From a virus: DNA of 25,620 nt. The DNA is taken from positions 1 to 25,620 of the IMG/VR virus record IMGVR_UViG_3300030116_002155, one strand, 5' to 3'. The notes beneath the pieces are model-generated. The model made no database searches, was not told the DNA's origin, and was given only the letters and a program-made list of their open reading frames with translations. Positions 15,329-25,448 of the stretch are shown in pieces (position 1 is the first letter of the stretch; every line of letters begins with the position of its first letter). Both the position numbers and the translations under genes were made by a program.

Positions 15329-15943
15329 ATGGCAATATTTAGTGCAATAGCAGCTGGAAAAGCTAGAAAAGCTCAGGGTAAGGCCCAAAGTAAGTTAGAT
15401 AAAGCTATAGCTGACAGACAGGAAATAATAAATCCTTATGAAAATGTAACGGATTTAAGCAGCATGGTTAGTAATCCTTTTGCTAATTTACAAGTAGCTA
15501 CAGGTGCGGCAGAAATGCAAGCAGAACAAGCAGATATATCTTTAGCAAGCACGCTAGACACTTTAAGAGCAACAGGAGCCGGTTCAGCTGGCGCTACAGC
15601 ATTAGCACAGGCGGCATTAAGAAGTAAACAAGGTATTGCCGCAACTATAGAACAACAAGAAGCACAAAACGCAAGATTAAGAGCGCAAGGTGAGCAAGTG
15701 GCTCAACAACAAAGAATAGCTCAAGTACAAAGAATGCAAGAAGCAGATGTTTTAGGTAGAACGTTTATGTTTCAAGCACAAGAAAGTAGAGATATTGCTG
15801 ATATATCAAGACAAGCTGGTATGGTCCAACAATATGGACAACAAAGAGCTGATGCTTTAGGTGCTATGGGGAAAAACACTGGGGCTGTGCTTGGGGCTTT
15901 TGCAGGGGGACTAGGTCAAGCTGCTGGTGAAAAATTGTTTTGA
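15329..15943 (+). CDS. Ala/Gln-rich probable internal virion (ejection) protein
   Basis: A 204-residue, almost entirely helical protein. The start region (MAIFSAIAAGKARKAQGKAQ) is followed by NPFANLQVATGAAEMQAEQA (about 50-70), a glycine-alanine turn (RATGAGSAGATALAQAAL, about 88-105), and a long Gln/Ala/Arg coiled coil through 175; the C-terminus is a glycine-rich segment (GAVLGAFAGGLGQAAGEKLF). I remember near-identical patterns from marine phage structural proteins of unknown role. Composition and position before two more large alpha-helical proteins resemble the internal core protein set (gp14, gp15, gp16) of T7-like phages, which enters the cell envelope with the DNA; that functional parallel is inferred, not shown by a motif. 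It starts two bases after the GNAT stop. Confidence 0.72.
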   Translation: MAIFSAIAAGKARKAQGKAQSKLDKAIADRQEIINPYENVTDLSSMVSNPFANLQVATGAAEMQAEQADISLASTLDTLRATGAGSAGATALAQAALRSKQGIAATIEQQEAQNARLRAQGEQVAQQQRIAQVQRMQEADVLGRTFMFQAQESRDIADISRQAGMVQQYGQQRADALGAMGKNTGAVLGAFAGGLGQAAGEKLF

Positions 15944-15961
15944 TAATAAAAAAATATAATT

Positions 15962-17461
15962 ATGGCATTACCAAAAGTAACATACGGATCATATAACTAT
16001 GGACAATATGCTAATCCAACAGCTATTAGATACAAAGGTGGCTTAGGTGAAGGTTTAGCTGAAGGTCTAGTTAGGGGTATAGAAGGTTTTAAAAAAGGAA
16101 AAGCTAAAGCAAAATTAGCTGAAGAGCAAAGCTTTATAGCGAGTACTGAATATGAAAATAAAGTTAATAAAGCTTTAGGAAATGCGCAGTCAGCTAATAG
16201 AGAATTTGTAATAGGTTTAAAACAAGAGGTTGGCGATTTAGTTAAAAATTATAAACTAGGCAGAATAAGCTTGGATGAATATTCAAAAGGAATGGATAAG
16301 TATAATGGATATTTGAATGATCTTCAGTTAATGAGTGGTATAGTTACAAATATAGCATCTTCTGATAATCCAGATGTAGATTTAACAACAGTAAGGCCAA
16401 GCCTAGACAATATTGGGTCAGCAATGACAAGAAATTCACTACAAAAACAGCAATTCATTATATCTGAAAATAAAACAGAAGATGGACTTAATTTTTCTTT
16501 GCCATCTGGTATGCCGTCAGATTTTAAAATAGTTAACATGTCTGTAAAAGATCTTATAAATGACGACAGATATTACACACCTAAAATACAATTTGATTTT
16601 GATGCAACCCCTATTGCTAATAGTTTATTACAAAATATTAAAAATTCTAAAGAAGGCAATGAGGCTATAACCTACACTAGAAGATCTATAGGTGATAAAG
16701 TTTTTGAATATGGTAAAATTAAATCTGAAAATATTGATCCCTACTTAGCGGCTAATCTTGATAAAGATTTAGTTTTAAAGGCGTTAACAAAAGAGCAAAA
16801 AGAAGCATATTTTGAAGATTCTATAGAGGGTAATAAAATGGGTGATTATGTAGGTTCTGAAGAACAAGACCAACAAATATATAATGCTCTTTCTAATGAA
16901 ATAAAAAACAAGCTTTTAAATTTAGAATTTGATCGTAAAGATGTAACTCAGATTGTTAATAGAAAAAACCAAGAAAAAATTAATTTAGTAGCTGCAAAAA
17001 ATGAATTTGAATCATATACTAAAAATATTGATGGTATTAAAAATTATCTTATAGATAAACAATTAGAGCTTGGCGACGAAATAAAAGACGGGGCAAAACC
17101 GGGTAGCATTGTTGTAACTAAAAAATTTAAAGACGAAGAAGGTAATGATCTTTCTCAATCATATGAATTAGATTTTACAAATAAAGAAACATGGAGATTT
17201 ATTGTTGGTGGTCAAATAAAAAATGATTTAAGAAAATTTTATGGAGGATCTCAGCCTATTACCGAACAATTAGGACAATTTGATATTGATCAAGCATATG
17301 ATAATTTTATGAAAGAAATTAAAAATATTACTCCTACTAAAGTAAAATTTAATCCTGAAACTGGCGAATTCGAAGAAAAAAATAATGTAGAAAAAGCTTT
17401 TGAAATGGATATTCCATTTTTACAACAATTAAAACAAATTGGAAAACCTATAAGAAATTAA
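15962..17461 (+). CDS. Unrecognised virion protein, possible second internal/ejection protein
   Basis: A 499-residue protein. The start has YGSYNYGQYANPTAIRYKGG, then a Gly/Lys helix (about 22-50, GLGEGLAEGLVRGIEGFKKG) and a helical region with many charged residues to about 140. The middle (about 170-290) has mixed strands and helices (GLNFSLPSGMPSDFKIVN, PKIQFDFDATPIANSLLQN). The C-terminal half is very rich in Lys, Glu, Asp and Asn. No signal peptide, membrane segment or catalytic motif is visible. It lies between two probable internal proteins, with three bases to the next start (AAATTATG), so joint production and a role in the same complex are likely. Function not assignable from sequence alone. 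Confidence 0.62.
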   Translation: MALPKVTYGSYNYGQYANPTAIRYKGGLGEGLAEGLVRGIEGFKKGKAKAKLAEEQSFIASTEYENKVNKALGNAQSANREFVIGLKQEVGDLVKNYKLGRISLDEYSKGMDKYNGYLNDLQLMSGIVTNIASSDNPDVDLTTVRPSLDNIGSAMTRNSLQKQQFIISENKTEDGLNFSLPSGMPSDFKIVNMSVKDLINDDRYYTPKIQFDFDATPIANSLLQNIKNSKEGNEAITYTRRSIGDKVFEYGKIKSENIDPYLAANLDKDLVLKALTKEQKEAYFEDSIEGNKMGDYVGSEEQDQQIYNALSNEIKNKLLNLEFDRKDVTQIVNRKNQEKINLVAAKNEFESYTKNIDGIKNYLIDKQLELGDEIKDGAKPGSIVVTKKFKDEEGNDLSQSYELDFTNKETWRFIVGGQIKNDLRKFYGGSQPITEQLGQFDIDQAYDNFMKEIKNITPTKVKFNPETGEFEEKNNVEKAFEMDIPFLQQLKQIGKPIRN

Positions 17462-17464
17462 ATT

Positions 17465-20400
17465 ATGTTAGAATATATAGTAGATGGTCAAATTGTTGAA
17501 GTTGACCCTAAAGACAAAGAATTGTTTTTAGAAAAATATCCTAATGCTACAGAACAAAAAAGTGTAGAACCGGATTTTCAGACTCCCACAACACCGGGTG
17601 CGGTTGTGGAGGAAACTGCAGCACCCGATACGGAATCCAAATCGGAAGATATTTCTTTGGGTTTACCAGAAAAAGTTAAAAATATATATGATAATTTACC
17701 TAAACCTTTGCAATGGATAGGCAGTCAATATGCTCGAAAGGTTAGAAAAGGAGCTATAGGGGCTTTAGATTTTACTAATTTTCTTGGTGGAATAGTTGAA
17801 AGCGCGGAAGGCGCAGCAGAAACCGCTTTAACATACAGATCAGACCAATTAGTTAGATCAGGAAAAATTACACAAGAAGAACAAAACTACTTACTTAATG
17901 AAATTTCAGATGGTGCTTTTGCTCCTCTTACTGATATTTTTGATCAAACTCAAAGAGCAAGAGATGTATTAGCAGATTTTGGACAAGAAGACCCTAATAG
18001 AACTATATATGAAGAATTAGAGCAAGGTAATTTTGGTGACGCAATAGATAAGCTTGAAAATGGCTTATTGCAAGCTATTCCAAGTGTAGCTGCAGCATTT
18101 GCCGGCCCTGCTGGTATGGCTGCTATTTTTACATCTGCTACCGGTAGTAACTATAAAACAAAAGTAGATGCTGATCCTAGTAAACGAGGTGATACTGAAA
18201 CATTTGGGTGGTCTTTGGCTCAAGGAGGTGTAGAACTAGTTAGTGAAATGGTAACAAGAGGTATAGTTAAAGGATTTGGTAAAATGACTTTGGCACCTAA
18301 TACAGTTAAAAATATATATAAAGCTACTACCAAAAATTTAGCTGGTAGAATACTAACAGGAGCAGCATTAGAGGGTAGTTCGGAAGTGGGTGCTCAAGAA
18401 GTAAATAGATATTTAGATTATATATGGGATGAAGATAATGCGTTTGGTTACCAAAAAACAAATCCCGACGGGAGTATAAAATACGATGTAGGAAACATTC
18501 TTCAAAGAAGTTTTGATACATTTTTGATTAGCTCTATTGTTGGTGGTGGATTAGGAGCGGCTAGTAAAACGCCTGGCTCAAAAAGATATACAGAAGAAAG
18601 ATTAAGCCCTGTTAGATTTAAAAAAGATAATCTAAAAATAGTTGAAGAAATATCCAAATTAGAAACCGAGTATGTTACAAACCCTAATCCTATAATTGAA
18701 AATAAAATATTAGAATTACAGCAGAAAGTAATAGATAACAAACTTTTAAATGAAAGAGTTTTAAATTCTTTTGAAGATTCAGAGTTAGTAGAATATGCTA
18801 GAGATAAAATAGCTATTAGTGAAGCTAGAGATAGCTTAAATAATATTGAAGACGTTAATATTAAAAACAGTATTGAAAAAGCTATTGAACAAAAAGAACA
18901 AAAAGTAGATGCACAATATAATGACAAGCTAAGTAGGTTAATCAAAATATTAGAAAAACCAATAAAACCTGAAGGAGCTTTATTATCTGACTTTGGTATA
19001 CTTTCTGCAGCTGATAAATTAAGAGAAGTTGCATTAGATAAAGCTAAGCAAACAAAAATATCTAATGATGTACAAAAAATATATGAAGAAAAAGGCACTG
19101 AAGGGGCGTTTGAAATCATTGAAAAATTTAAACCTATAACAAATAAACTTGTAAGAAAAAGAAGGGAAGCCCCTAATTATGATGAACAACTGTTAAGAGA
19201 TGAAATTGAAACAGGTGAAAGAGGCATATTAGATTTAATAAGAGAATACAAACCAGATAGTGGCGTTCCTTTATCAGGATATATAAACAAGTTTTTACCA
19301 GCTAGGGCAATTGAAGCATCGAAAAGAGTATTAGGCGAAGAGTTTACACAAGATGTAACTGAAATAAGAGAATCAAGAATTGAATTAGATGATACTACTC
19401 AAGAAGTTTTAGATTTTGTAAGAACAGAACCTAAAGCAAAAGAACAATTAAGAGATATAGCTGGTATTACAAAAGAAAGTGTACAAAAAGATGCTACTGA
19501 AATATTGAAAGGTAAGTTGCCTGGCATAGTAGAAAAAAGTGGTAGAGATCAAAACGAAATACTAACAGCAATAAATAACGCTAGCAAATTAAAAATAAGT
19601 GATAGTGTTCTTGAAGAAATGGGTGGAAATTTTAACAATACCCAAGAACAGAATAGCAGGTTTGCAACATTTTTAGATACCAACTACGATGCAATAATAA
19701 AATCCATACCTGACGCTGTTAAAAATAAATTACCTGTATTTGAAAAAATTGATACTGGTAAAAGAGAGAAAACAAAAGAAGGCAAAAAAATATTTGAATA
19801 TAAGACGCCTACAAAAGAACAAATGCTTTCTTTTTATACAGAAGGAGGCCTTACAACTTTAAGAGCAAGAAAATTAAAACTAGCTGATATACTTGCACAA
19901 GAAATAGGTAAAGACGCTATAGCAGAAGTTTTGGCTGATGCTAATATTCAAAAAGAATTTTTAGAAAGACAAGAATTATTAGGTAAAGAAATACCACAGG
20001 ATGCAATACCAAGATTATTACAAAGAATAGATAGATTAATTGAAAGCATAGACACAAAAAGCGATGGAACATTAGCAATGGGTATATCACCTGTTTTAAT
20101 TAAAAGAGCTTTTAAAGGTGGTTTAAAAGTATTTAGAGCAACATTAAAGAAAACAAATGATTTTCAAAAAGCTTTAACTGCATTCATTAAAAAAGTAAAA
20201 ACTTATTTTAAATCTGCTGAAGAAGGTAAAATAGCTGAAGAAGTTATAAAAGAAAATGTAACTATAAATAATATTGAAAGCTTAGACCTTGATGCAATGA
20301 TTGATGAAGTTGCAAAACGTGTAAATACTAATAGAGGTATTGCATATGAAAGAGTAATATATTCCAATGCAGCTAATGTTAAAAATCCTTTATTTAAAAT

Positions 20401-23128
20401 AATTGGCGAACAAACTGAAAAAGGTGGTGCTGCCGATATACAATTTGAAATTGCTGGTAAAAGATTTGATGTAGAAGCTAAATTAGAAAGCCCGCAATAT
20501 AGTAGTATAAATGGACAATACAATTTTAATAATAAAGTTTTTACAAATTCTAAAAATACTAAAATTAGTGAAGGTTTACAAATTACATTAGACAATATAT
20601 TAGAAAAAGCAAAACCTGCACTAGATAAATATAAACAAAGAGCGACTGAATTAGGTGTTAATTTAGAAACAAGCGGTAGTAAAATGCCAATTGATATATT
20701 TAATCAATTAAAAGAAGAGGGATTACAAAATAATATTACAACTAGAGAAGTTGTTAGTCAATCAGTAATAGAAGAATTATATAATAAAAAAGATCAATAT
20801 TATATACAAATAAAAGGAAAAGGATTATATTATATAGGTAAAAACCCATTAAATTTACCTGTTCCTAAATTAGAAGGGGATGTAACAATTACATTTAGAA
20901 TAGCGAGGAGTTCAAGAGATAAAAATAACAATGTTACTCCTACTCTTAGATTTTTACCAGATGATATAAATATAACTAGTAAAAAATCTGATCATAGTAT
21001 AGATACAGCTAATGGAATAAATAAATTATTAAAGTCTGATAATATATTAGATTTAATAGCAAAACAAAAATCTATTGAAAAATATAATTCAAAAGATTTA
21101 AATAAAGATTTTAATAAGTTTTTAGAAAAATCTACGGGTATAGGCGCTCAAAAAGTATTTAGCAAGGCTAAAGCAGAGGCAAGAGCTAAAACAGTAAGAA
21201 AAGGTTTTGGTGATTATTTTGTACCGCCTGGTGCTGAAGATTTTGCTGGTTTAATGCATAAAACATTAGCCAAAGGCAAAGAAGGAGAAAAACAATTAAA
21301 GTTTTATCAAGATAATTTATATACACCATATAACGTTGCTAATGAAAACATAACACGAGAAAGAGCGGCGATGTTTGAAGATTTTAGAGCATTAAAGAAA
21401 AAATTAAGTAATGTGCCTAAAAAATTAAAAAAGCTTACTAAAGGTGGTGATTTTACAAATGACCAAGCTGTTAGAGTATACATGTGGAATAAGTTAGGTC
21501 AGAAAGTTCCTGGCTTATCTGAAACAGATTTAAAATCTTTAGTAAAAGAAGTTAGTAATGATAAAGAATTAAGTCAATTTGCTAATGAGTTATTAAATAT
21601 AACTAAAGGTGATGGGTATGTAAAACCTGAAAACAATTGGATGAGTGGTAATATAGCTACTGATTTAATGGGATTAATGAATTCAACTAAAAGAAGTAAA
21701 CATTTAGAAGTTTGGCAAAATAATGTTGATCAAATATTTAGTGAACAAAATTTAAATAAATTAGAAGCAGCTTACGGCAAAAAGTGGGTAACTAATCTAA
21801 AGAAAACTTTAGAAAGAATGAAGACTGGCATGAATAGAAAATGGGGAGGCGATGCAGTTTTGCAATCTTATTTAGATTGGGTAAATGGTTCTGTTGGTGC
21901 AATCATGTTCTTAAACACTAGATCGGCTGTGCTACAAACAATATCTAATATAAACTATTTAAACTTTAGCGACAACAACCCATTGCAAGCTGCAAAAGCA
22001 TTTGCAAATCAAAAACAATATTGGTCTGATTTTAAAACTATATTTAATTCTGATTATTTGCAAGAAAGAAGAGGTGGTAATAAAATTAATGTAAACGAAA
22101 GCGAATTAGCATTAGCTGCTGAAAAAGGTGGAATACAAGGAACAATTAGTTTATTATTAAATAAAGGGTTTATATTTACAAAAATAGCAGATAGTTTTGC
22201 TATTGCTTCAGGTGGTGCTTCAATGTACCGTAATAGAATAAATACTTATATTAAAGAAGGTTTATCTGAAAAAGAAGCTACAGAAAAAGCATTTATAGAT
22301 TTTAAAGCTATAACTGAAGAAACACAACAGTCAAGTAGACCTGATAGAATATCTGAACAACAAGCAAGTAATGCGGGTAGATTATTATTAGCATTTGCTA
22401 ATACTCCAATGCAGTACAATAGAATTATTAAAAAGAATGCCCAAGATTTAATTGCTCGTAGAGGTGATCCTAAAGAAAAAATATCTAAAATAATATATTA
22501 TAGTACAATACAAAACTTAATATTTAATGCAATGCAAAAAGCTTTATTTGCTTTAGCATTTGCAGAAGATGAGGAAGATGAGGAAGAAGTATCTAAATAC
22601 GCTTTAGTTGGAGAAGGCATGGCTGATTCATTATTAAGAGGGTCAGGTTTAACAGGTAACGCTGTGGTTGCTGTAAAAAATGTAGCTATAGATGTGGCTA
22701 GAAGATCCGGTAGACCAAGACCAAATTTTAAAGATGCAGCATGGAAAGCAGCTACTTTATCACCACCAATTAACAATAAATTAACTAAAGTGAGAGGTGC
22801 ATTATATTCATTAGATTATGTTACGCCTAGAAATATATTTGATCCATCGTTAGATAATCCAGCATTATCAGCAGGGGCGAATATAATATCCGCTACAACC
22901 AACATACCATTAGATAGAGCATTAAGAAAAGCACAAAATATAGAAGCGGCAATGAGTGATGAAGCAGAGTGGTGGCAAAGCACAGCATTATTAATGGGTT
23001 GGGGGTCATGGGAATTAGGTATGCAAAAACCAAAAAAACAATCAAAAAAGAAGACAGAAGTTCCTAAACCACTTTTTGATAAATCACAAAATATATTTAA
23101 TAAAAGAAAAAGTACAATTTTTAAATAA
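17465..23128 (+). CDS. Giant internal virion protein with PD-(D/E)XK nuclease-like motif
   Basis: At 1887 residues this is the largest gene here, probably a cargo or ejection protein delivered with the genome. Visible parts in order: an N-terminal module (1-33, IVDGQIVEVDPKDKELFLEK) of a kind I remember at the start of marine phage virion proteins; an acidic Pro/Thr/Glu linker (about 34-70), unusually GC-rich; hydrophobic Ala/Gly stretches near 200-228 and 350-365; long charged helices (about 375-560); a nuclease-like segment at about 955-1010, with E962, D991 and E1004-x-K1006, that is D-x12-E-x-K after an upstream Glu; a conserved helical region from about 1231 to 1760 (GFGDYFVPPGAEDFAGL, RSAVLQTISNINYLN at 1486, TEETQQSSRPDRISEQQAS near 1620, AFANTPMQYNRIIKKNA); and an acidic run EDEEDEEE near 1700. 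The C-terminal region matches giant virion proteins of marine phages. Length and order recall T7 gp16, but no lytic transglycosylase motif was recognised. Confidence 0.8.
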   Translation: MLEYIVDGQIVEVDPKDKELFLEKYPNATEQKSVEPDFQTPTTPGAVVEETAAPDTESKSEDISLGLPEKVKNIYDNLPKPLQWIGSQYARKVRKGAIGALDFTNFLGGIVESAEGAAETALTYRSDQLVRSGKITQEEQNYLLNEISDGAFAPLTDIFDQTQRARDVLADFGQEDPNRTIYEELEQGNFGDAIDKLENGLLQAIPSVAAAFAGPAGMAAIFTSATGSNYKTKVDADPSKRGDTETFGWSLAQGGVELVSEMVTRGIVKGFGKMTLAPNTVKNIYKATTKNLAGRILTGAALEGSSEVGAQEVNRYLDYIWDEDNAFGYQKTNPDGSIKYDVGNILQRSFDTFLISSIVGGGLGAASKTPGSKRYTEERLSPVRFKKDNLKIVEEISKLETEYVTNPNPIIENKILELQQKVIDNKLLNERVLNSFEDSELVEYARDKIAISEARDSLNNIEDVNIKNSIEKAIEQKEQKVDAQYNDKLSRLIKILEKPIKPEGALLSDFGILSAADKLREVALDKAKQTKISNDVQKIYEEKGTEGAFEIIEKFKPITNKLVRKRREAPNYDEQLLRDEIETGERGILDLIREYKPDSGVPLSGYINKFLPARAIEASKRVLGEEFTQDVTEIRESRIELDDTTQEVLDFVRTEPKAKEQLRDIAGITKESVQKDATEILKGKLPGIVEKSGRDQNEILTAINNASKLKISDSVLEEMGGNFNNTQEQNSRFATFLDTNYDAIIKSIPDAVKNKLPVFEKIDTGKREKTKEGKKIFEYKTPTKEQMLSFYTEGGLTTLRARKLKLADILAQEIGKDAIAEVLADANIQKEFLERQELLGKEIPQDAIPRLLQRIDRLIESIDTKSDGTLAMGISPVLIKRAFKGGLKVFRATLKKTNDFQKALTAFIKKVKTYFKSAEEGKIAEEVIKENVTINNIESLDLDAMIDEVAKRVNTNRGIAYERVIYSNAANVKNPLFKIIGEQTEKGGAADIQFEIAGKRFDVEAKLESPQYSSINGQYNFNNKVFTNSKNTKISEGLQITLDNILEKAKPALDKYKQRATELGVNLETSGSKMPIDIFNQLKEEGLQNNITTREVVSQSVIEELYNKKDQYYIQIKGKGLYYIGKNPLNLPVPKLEGDVTITFRIARSSRDKNNNVTPTLRFLPDDINITSKKSDHSIDTANGINKLLKSDNILDLIAKQKSIEKYNSKDLNKDFNKFLEKSTGIGAQKVFSKAKAEARAKTVRKGFGDYFVPPGAEDFAGLMHKTLAKGKEGEKQLKFYQDNLYTPYNVANENITRERAAMFEDFRALKKKLSNVPKKLKKLTKGGDFTNDQAVRVYMWNKLGQKVPGLSETDLKSLVKEVSNDKELSQFANELLNITKGDGYVKPENNWMSGNIATDLMGLMNSTKRSKHLEVWQNNVDQIFSEQNLNKLEAAYGKKWVTNLKKTLERMKTGMNRKWGGDAVLQSYLDWVNGSVGAIMFLNTRSAVLQTISNINYLNFSDNNPLQAAKAFANQKQYWSDFKTIFNSDYLQERRGGNKINVNESELALAAEKGGIQGTISLLLNKGFIFTKIADSFAIASGGASMYRNRINTYIKEGLSEKEATEKAFIDFKAITEETQQSSRPDRISEQQASNAGRLLLAFANTPMQYNRIIKKNAQDLIARRGDPKEKISKIIYYSTIQNLIFNAMQKALFALAFAEDEEDEEEVSKYALVGEGMADSLLRGSGLTGNAVVAVKNVAIDVARRSGRPRPNFKDAAWKAATLSPPINNKLTKVRGALYSLDYVTPRNIFDPSLDNPALSAGANIISATTNIPLDRALRKAQNIEAAMSDEAEWWQSTALLMGWGSWELGMQKPKKQSKKKTEVPKPLFDKSQNIFNKRKSTIFK

Positions 23129-24983: not shown

Positions 24984-25448
24984 ATGAAAAACATAAGCAA
25001 GCATATCTCATATAAAGAGGGTGTGTATAGCATCACTGCTTTGAGATTAGGTTTAAATAATGATCCTACAAAAACTCATTTAACTAATATGGAATTATTA
25101 GCTGAAAAGATTTTTGAACCATTAAGAAAACACGTAGGTGGACCAATTAAAATAAATTCATTTTATCGCGGACCTGAATTAAATAAAGCGATCGGCGGGA
25201 GTGCCAATTCGCAACATTGTAAAGGCCAAGCAATTGATATTGATGATGTATATGGTTATATGAGTAATGCTGATATGTATGAATATATAAAGAATAACTT
25301 ATCGTTCGATCAGATGATATGGGAATTTGGAAATTCTGATAACCCGGATTGGGTTCATGTAAGTTATGTAAATGAAGAAGCTAATAGAAACAGATGTTTA
25401 TTAGCTTATAAAGACGAAAATAATAAAACAGCTTATAAAGTAATATAG
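24984..25448 (+). CDS. Endolysin, peptidase M15 (L-Ala-D-Glu or D-Ala-type carboxy/endopeptidase) family
   Basis: Probable peptidoglycan peptide cleaving endolysin of 154 residues. Zinc ligand pattern of M15 peptidases: H78 and D85 in SQHCKGQAIDID (the S-x-H-x-x-G-x-A-x-D motif), and H125 in DWVHVSY, with E114 in QMIWEFG as the likely catalytic base. INSFYRGPELNKAIGG precedes the first motif, as in M15 proteins. No signal peptide is present, so release to the wall needs a membrane protein, consistent with the two one-pass proteins just upstream. The C-terminal about 25 residues are charged and extra. Exact bond specificity (L,D- or D,D-) cannot be read from the motif. Confidence 0.88.
   Translation: MKNISKHISYKEGVYSITALRLGLNNDPTKTHLTNMELLAEKIFEPLRKHVGGPIKINSFYRGPELNKAIGGSANSQHCKGQAIDIDDVYGYMSNADMYEYIKNNLSFDQMIWEFGNSDNPDWVHVSYVNEEANRNRCLLAYKDENNKTAYKVI

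Follow-up and report, generated by a model that had tools for sequence, protein, structure and literature searches.

The window analysed here is the whole 25,620-nucleotide stretch at positions 1 to 25,620 of the IMG/VR virus record IMGVR_UViG_3300030116_002155, whose late genes run in the order terminase, portal, capsid, tail genes, a protein of about 200 amino acids, one of about 500, and a giant protein. The giant protein, a predicted internal or ejection protein, is encoded by an open reading frame of 1887 amino acids on the plus strand (17465–23128, window ORF list), which also contains the nuclease module that is our main subject. Comparison with relatives, by BLAST for the N-terminal part, divides it into an N-terminal part kept only in some of them (residues 1–949, 17465–20311), the module itself (residues about 945–1200, 20297–21064) and a constant C-terminal region (residues about 1201–1865, 21065–23059) found in all 86 giant ORFs examined. 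The module is about 250 residues long and comprises a nuclease core followed by a conserved second half that carries YYIQIKGKGLYY (residues 1112–1123, 20798–20833). Within the N-terminal half, residues about 520–700 form the part shared most widely among relatives, and ILDLIREYKPDSGVPLSGYINKFLPARAIEASKRVLGEEF, at window positions 19217–19385 (residues about 585–640), looks by eye like sigma-70 region 2. Downstream, at 24984–25448, lies a gene that matches peptidase M15 in Pfam (PF08291, E=7e-15) and probably encodes an endolysin.

The late gene order matches that of the Flavobacterium elemo phages and the Manatee Spring podophage, and partly that of Cellulophaga and Tenacibaculum podophages. 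By this order, the 204-residue protein (15329–15943, plus strand) is likely an internal protein comparable to T7 gp14, and its syntenic counterpart in elemoA and Gundel_1 is annotated as a virion structural protein. The 499-residue protein (15962–17461, plus strand), for which no confident family match was found, is likely of the T7 gp15 kind, with a syntenic gene in phi46:3 (gp118) annotated as a structural protein. In T7, gp14, gp15 and gp16 are ejected as a set. Searching the named phages by tblastn with the whole giant protein or its C-terminus gave nothing significant, so its placement had to come from synteny and from a profile of the C-terminus. With E=1.3e-12, the profile matched gp074 of Gundel_1, annotated 'structural protein', in a phage described as a podovirus (PMC8776804). 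In elemoA, the Manatee Spring phage and phi46:3 the giant proteins escaped the profile, and thus their equivalence rests on gene order. Together, gene order and the annotation of Gundel_1 gp074 suggest that the giant protein is probably a virion component ejected with the genome.

The protein also resembles the polyvalent proteins surveyed by Iyer et al. 2017 (PMC5512222), being large, built of several modules, encoded among late virion genes and variable in module content. A zincin-type HExxH motif, of a kind common though not universal in polyvalent proteins, occurs upstream of the module's position in 60 of 74 giant relatives (for example SHELLHGIL; L122, L152, L163, L164). HExxH is missing from the window copy, which counts against the interpretation we favour below, and none of the domains of the polyvalent set (LPD, MPTase, ART, PBECR and others) was matched by Pfam in the window protein. 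No DNase domains accompany or displace the ParB-like ones in that survey. Thus, a PD-(D/E)XK module lies outside it, with later literature covered through open-access papers, a non-exhaustive set.

An earlier, sequence-only reading had proposed a PD-(D/E)XK nuclease within the giant protein, and the residues it named are all present in the ORF translation: GIAYERVI with E962, then GGAADIQFEIAGKRFDVEAK with D991, E1004 and K1006, including the 12-residue gap between D991 and E1004. E962, the predicted active-site helix glutamate, is encoded at 20348–20350, D991, a predicted metal ligand, at 20435–20437, and the ExK of the motif, E1004-A-K1006, at 20474–20482 (E1004 codon 20474–20476, K1006 codon 20480–20482), all on the plus strand. 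As a pattern of letters the motif is ordinary, since the protein contains 18 instances of a loose E-D-ExK pattern and shuffled versions have a mean of 15.8, and we attach no significance to the bare motif. The argument must accordingly come from relatives and structure.

Conservation among relatives lifts the motif above chance. We aligned 34 homologues, mostly stand-alone phage genes, which are 21–30% identical to the window sequence except for L001 at 79% (alignment A3). In all 34, E962, D991 and E1004 are invariant, and K1006 is nearly so, with a glycine in its place in L029, a stand-alone gene. Equally well conserved in this alignment is a further motif, K..YYIQ(I/V), in which YYIQ is invariant. 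Restricting the comparison to nine domain copies that lie within giant phage proteins (alignment A5; 20–39% identity to the window, L001 again 79%) left only 8 invariant columns, which include E962, D991, E1004 and K1006 and four others. By our own arithmetic, the chance of finding the four named residues among the invariant columns is about 2e-7 (hypergeometric, 293 positions, columns taken as random). Matches from an HMM search in L102, L163 and L164 likewise retain the D and the ExK. Additionally, the module has a dN/dS of about 0.16 against L001, the single close nuclease-bearing relative available for this analysis, indicating purifying selection.

An AlphaFold2 model built from the 34-homologue alignment reached a pLDDT of 83.9 and a pTM of 0.76, and a second AlphaFold model from the nine internal homologues only reached 82.1 and 0.73; both have the window sequence as their target, so the two are not fully independent. 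The first model shows the arrangement expected of PD-(D/E)XK nucleases, with a helix glutamate followed by the D and then by E-x-K at adjacent predicted strands (E48–52 of the modelled piece, residues 992–996, and E55–62, residues 999–1006). The sequence-only reading had placed the residues on two hydrophobic strands. Two strands are indeed predicted at this point: D991 immediately precedes one of them, and the following strand ends with E1004-x-K1006.

Foldseek against the PDB ranked the HhaI restriction endonuclease first for both models (prob 0.97, E 1.1e-3 for the A3-based model; prob 0.95, E 3.8e-4 for that from the internal homologues), with nearly the whole domain aligned (PDB 6uke). 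HinP1I (1ynm) and the Hjc resolvases ranked far below it in the A3-based search. The prediction thus has the restriction-endonuclease core fold, and as the TM-scores against HhaI are low (0.29–0.38), the match is one at the level of fold and does not imply close similarity. In a multiple alignment the E, D, E and K of HhaI are co-linear with those of the window. However, sequence homology to HhaI was not significant (E=0.21 by hhalign; a profile score of 8.0 bits, where the highest among 200 shuffles was 5.0), the HhaI comparison sequence being identical to PDB 6uke across residues 1–258. The window domain also differs from HhaI in being embedded in a giant phage protein. We noticed no partner methyltransferase on reading through the window's ORFs and those in the remainder of the incomplete 32.6-kb record, and no HhaI relatives were found in plasmids.

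Comparison of the A3 profile with PDB sequences gave 2k5w as the best match (E=0.014, weak), covering the second half of the module. Next came Hjc resolvases (7bgs, 4tkk, 1hh1; E=0.032 to 1.7), in which G-x-x-(Y)E, D and ExK align with those of the window. The Hjc matches are not significant and take in the nuclease core only, leaving out the module's second half. No confident match for the domain emerged from searches of Pfam, PDB and NCBIfam/PADLOC. A Glyco_hydro_15 match (E=0.018, below the cut-off) was rejected as it crosses the module boundary and other support is absent, and a SwaI-like match in the C-terminal region (E=0.0028) also fell below the cut-off. The earlier nuclease reading thus survived both of the outcomes it had named as fatal, since a nuclease fold is predicted and relatives keep the residues, and the assignment of residues about 945–1200 as a PD-(D/E)XK nuclease domain is well supported by alignments and structural models.

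The domain has a wide distribution outside giant proteins. Searched with a small alignment, IMG/VR yielded 146 relatives, and the 80 that were fetched are nearly all stand-alone phage genes of about 225–285 codons. Named examples are PSSM2_192 of P-SSM2, P-TIM40_181, a gene of Synechococcus phage S-H25 and one of the marine virus AG-345-E02, and in the first three, which are cyanophages, the gene lies near mazG (pyrophosphatase) and the gene for the gp41 primase-helicase. These solo genes are given no function in a paper on the core genes of cyanophages. All 34 members of the homologue alignment matched PHROG 26930, a family with no assigned function, which shares the domain family and the four residues with the window module. 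The members of PHROG 26930 differ in being solo genes for 225–280 residues near replication genes, whereas the window copy is embedded in a giant late protein. We suggest that PD-(D/E)XK nuclease is a likely function for this marine phage family, widespread as judged from the 146 relatives. One weak InPase match in Pfam was confined to a stand-alone homologue. In GTDB genomes, where we looked for a bacterial source, the sole match lay on cyanophage DNA in a Nonlabens assembly. That contig of Nonlabens xiamenensis (NZ_RMVE01000006.1) carries gp41 helicase, mazG and a near-identical copy of P-TIM40_181, and is thus a probable contaminant or misbinned.

The nuclease domain is a cassette: it occupies a slot before the shared C-terminal ~640 residues that is filled with unrelated modules in relatives, a feature that is new here. 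Six close-relative loci with the giant protein were fetched, two of them near-identical (L003 and L004) and one cut short (L006). In four loci (L002, L003, L005, L007) the C-terminal ~650–700 residues are 73–82% identical to the window while the stretch at about 950–1200 is unrelated. L001 shows the reverse, with residues 500–1200 being 81–83% identical and the C-terminus only 53%. These opposite mosaics indicate that movement of the module and its neighbours was not tied to that of the C-terminus.

Scanning IMG/VR with a C-terminal alignment extended this picture to at least 572 relatives, and among the 86 giant ORFs upstream homology was seen in a minority. Clustering of the slot stretch (n=72) gave a dominant module in 52, the nuclease in 11 and further groups of 5, 3 and 1, so that the nuclease fills the slot in about one in six sampled relatives. 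This count draws on the loci that scored highest in the C-terminal search and thus leans towards close relatives. By eye, the 52-member and 5-member groups seem related, having an E-H motif in common, and would account for 57 of 72 if joined. This motif (YEHT or LEHE) is conserved in the dominant cassette (stretches before the constant region in L099–L172), and a Pfam scan of the other cassettes, including the dominant one, gave no convincing family. The singleton, L117, resembles a divergent nuclease by eye. By HMM searches, eleven relatives in addition to the window carry the module at full length, with a position further upstream in L122, and L101 and L108 have partial copies where their contigs end. 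A scan with the divergent internal module of L131 returned only its own contig.

On this evidence, we think the most likely role of the module is that of an early DNase effector. Residues about 945–1200 would fold as a PD-(D/E)XK endonuclease whose nearest solved fold is of the HhaI type, with E962, D991, E1004 and K1006 as predicted metal-binding and catalytic residues and the YYIQIKGKGLYY half as a predicted accessory or DNA-binding part. The constant C-terminal ~640 residues presumably serve packaging and ejection as a podophage internal protein. Ejected with the genome, the giant protein would carry the nuclease into the cell, where it could act as a metal-dependent DNase on the host chromosome or on resident or competing mobile DNA. 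The exchange of modules among relatives is what is expected of effectors in an arms race. The analysis shows the residues and their conservation, the fold as predicted, exchange of the cassette and purifying selection on it; we infer catalysis, a DNA substrate, virion location, injection and the target, and we regard the explanation as a whole, an HhaI-like nuclease in a cassette slot that is ejected and cuts DNA in the cell, as reasonably probable. The low TM-scores against HhaI and the non-significant sequence link count against it, as does the fact that reading the incomplete record brought up no methyltransferase by which the phage might spare its own DNA.

The neighbourhood of the stand-alone homologues speaks against the effector view to some extent, because their adjacency to replication genes means that DNA processing would fit too. 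The module might then be no weapon but a structure-specific nuclease acting on Holliday junctions or branches in the phage's own incoming or replicating DNA, a reading also favoured by the recurrence of Hjc resolvases among the profile matches and below HhaI in Foldseek. We consider this unlikely. The same phage record carries, outside the window, a minus-strand ORF (L181:4016–4480) that we take, from reading it, to encode a T7 endonuclease I-like protein, and the module is missing from most relatives with the same slot, which would be odd for an essential processing enzyme. Both points weaken the resolvase reading, and the top structural match is a restriction enzyme. The ORF at L181:4016–4480 adjoins genes resembling those for ribonucleotide reductase, thymidylate synthase and a primase-helicase.

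Other readings keep parts of the effector interpretation and alter one step. The nuclease could be delivered at entry and yet cut RNA, such as tRNA or mRNA, sparing DNA, given that predicted RNases (PBECR) occur among injected phage proteins (PMC5512222) and the DNA substrate here is inferred. The nearest solved folds, those of HhaI, HinP1I and Hjc, belong to DNA endonucleases, which makes an RNA substrate highly improbable. PD-(D/E)XK domains are mostly DNases. The glycine in place of K1006 in L029 would suit a fold that has lost activity and serves the ejection protein as a structural element or in DNA binding. Such a role is very doubtful, as the predicted catalytic four make up half of the invariant columns of the internal versions, a pattern of an active site and unlike a scaffold, and a structural part would not be absent from most relatives. 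Virion location and ejection draw on gene order and a homologue's annotation, and the protein might instead stay in the virion or an envelope conduit, its nuclease acting in packaging or on extracellular DNA. Against this stands the podophage order itself, with proteins of ~200 and ~500 residues before the giant one as in the ejected T7 set, and we give the idea little credence.

If active and delivered, the module would represent a DNase type of effector absent from the published survey of injected phage proteins (PMC5512222). It would cut DNA without gene expression, so that this marine phage may cut DNA inside the host cell at the first moment of infection. More broadly, and more tentatively, marine podophages of Flavobacteria and their kin may possess a giant ejected protein with a dedicated effector slot for swapped modules. 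One of these, a restriction-enzyme-like DNase from a family otherwise known as solo phage genes, would arrive at entry and destroy the DNA of host or rivals ahead of any expression of phage genes; we see this as possible, though somewhat short of probable. Module exchange among phages that are otherwise alike offers a natural effector series for comparison, and the slot is a place to seek unknown anti-host or anti-competitor enzymes. At L005:8890, a stop where the cassette starts breaks the giant gene into two ORFs, and L006, which is identical to L005 over their common part, reads through that stop.
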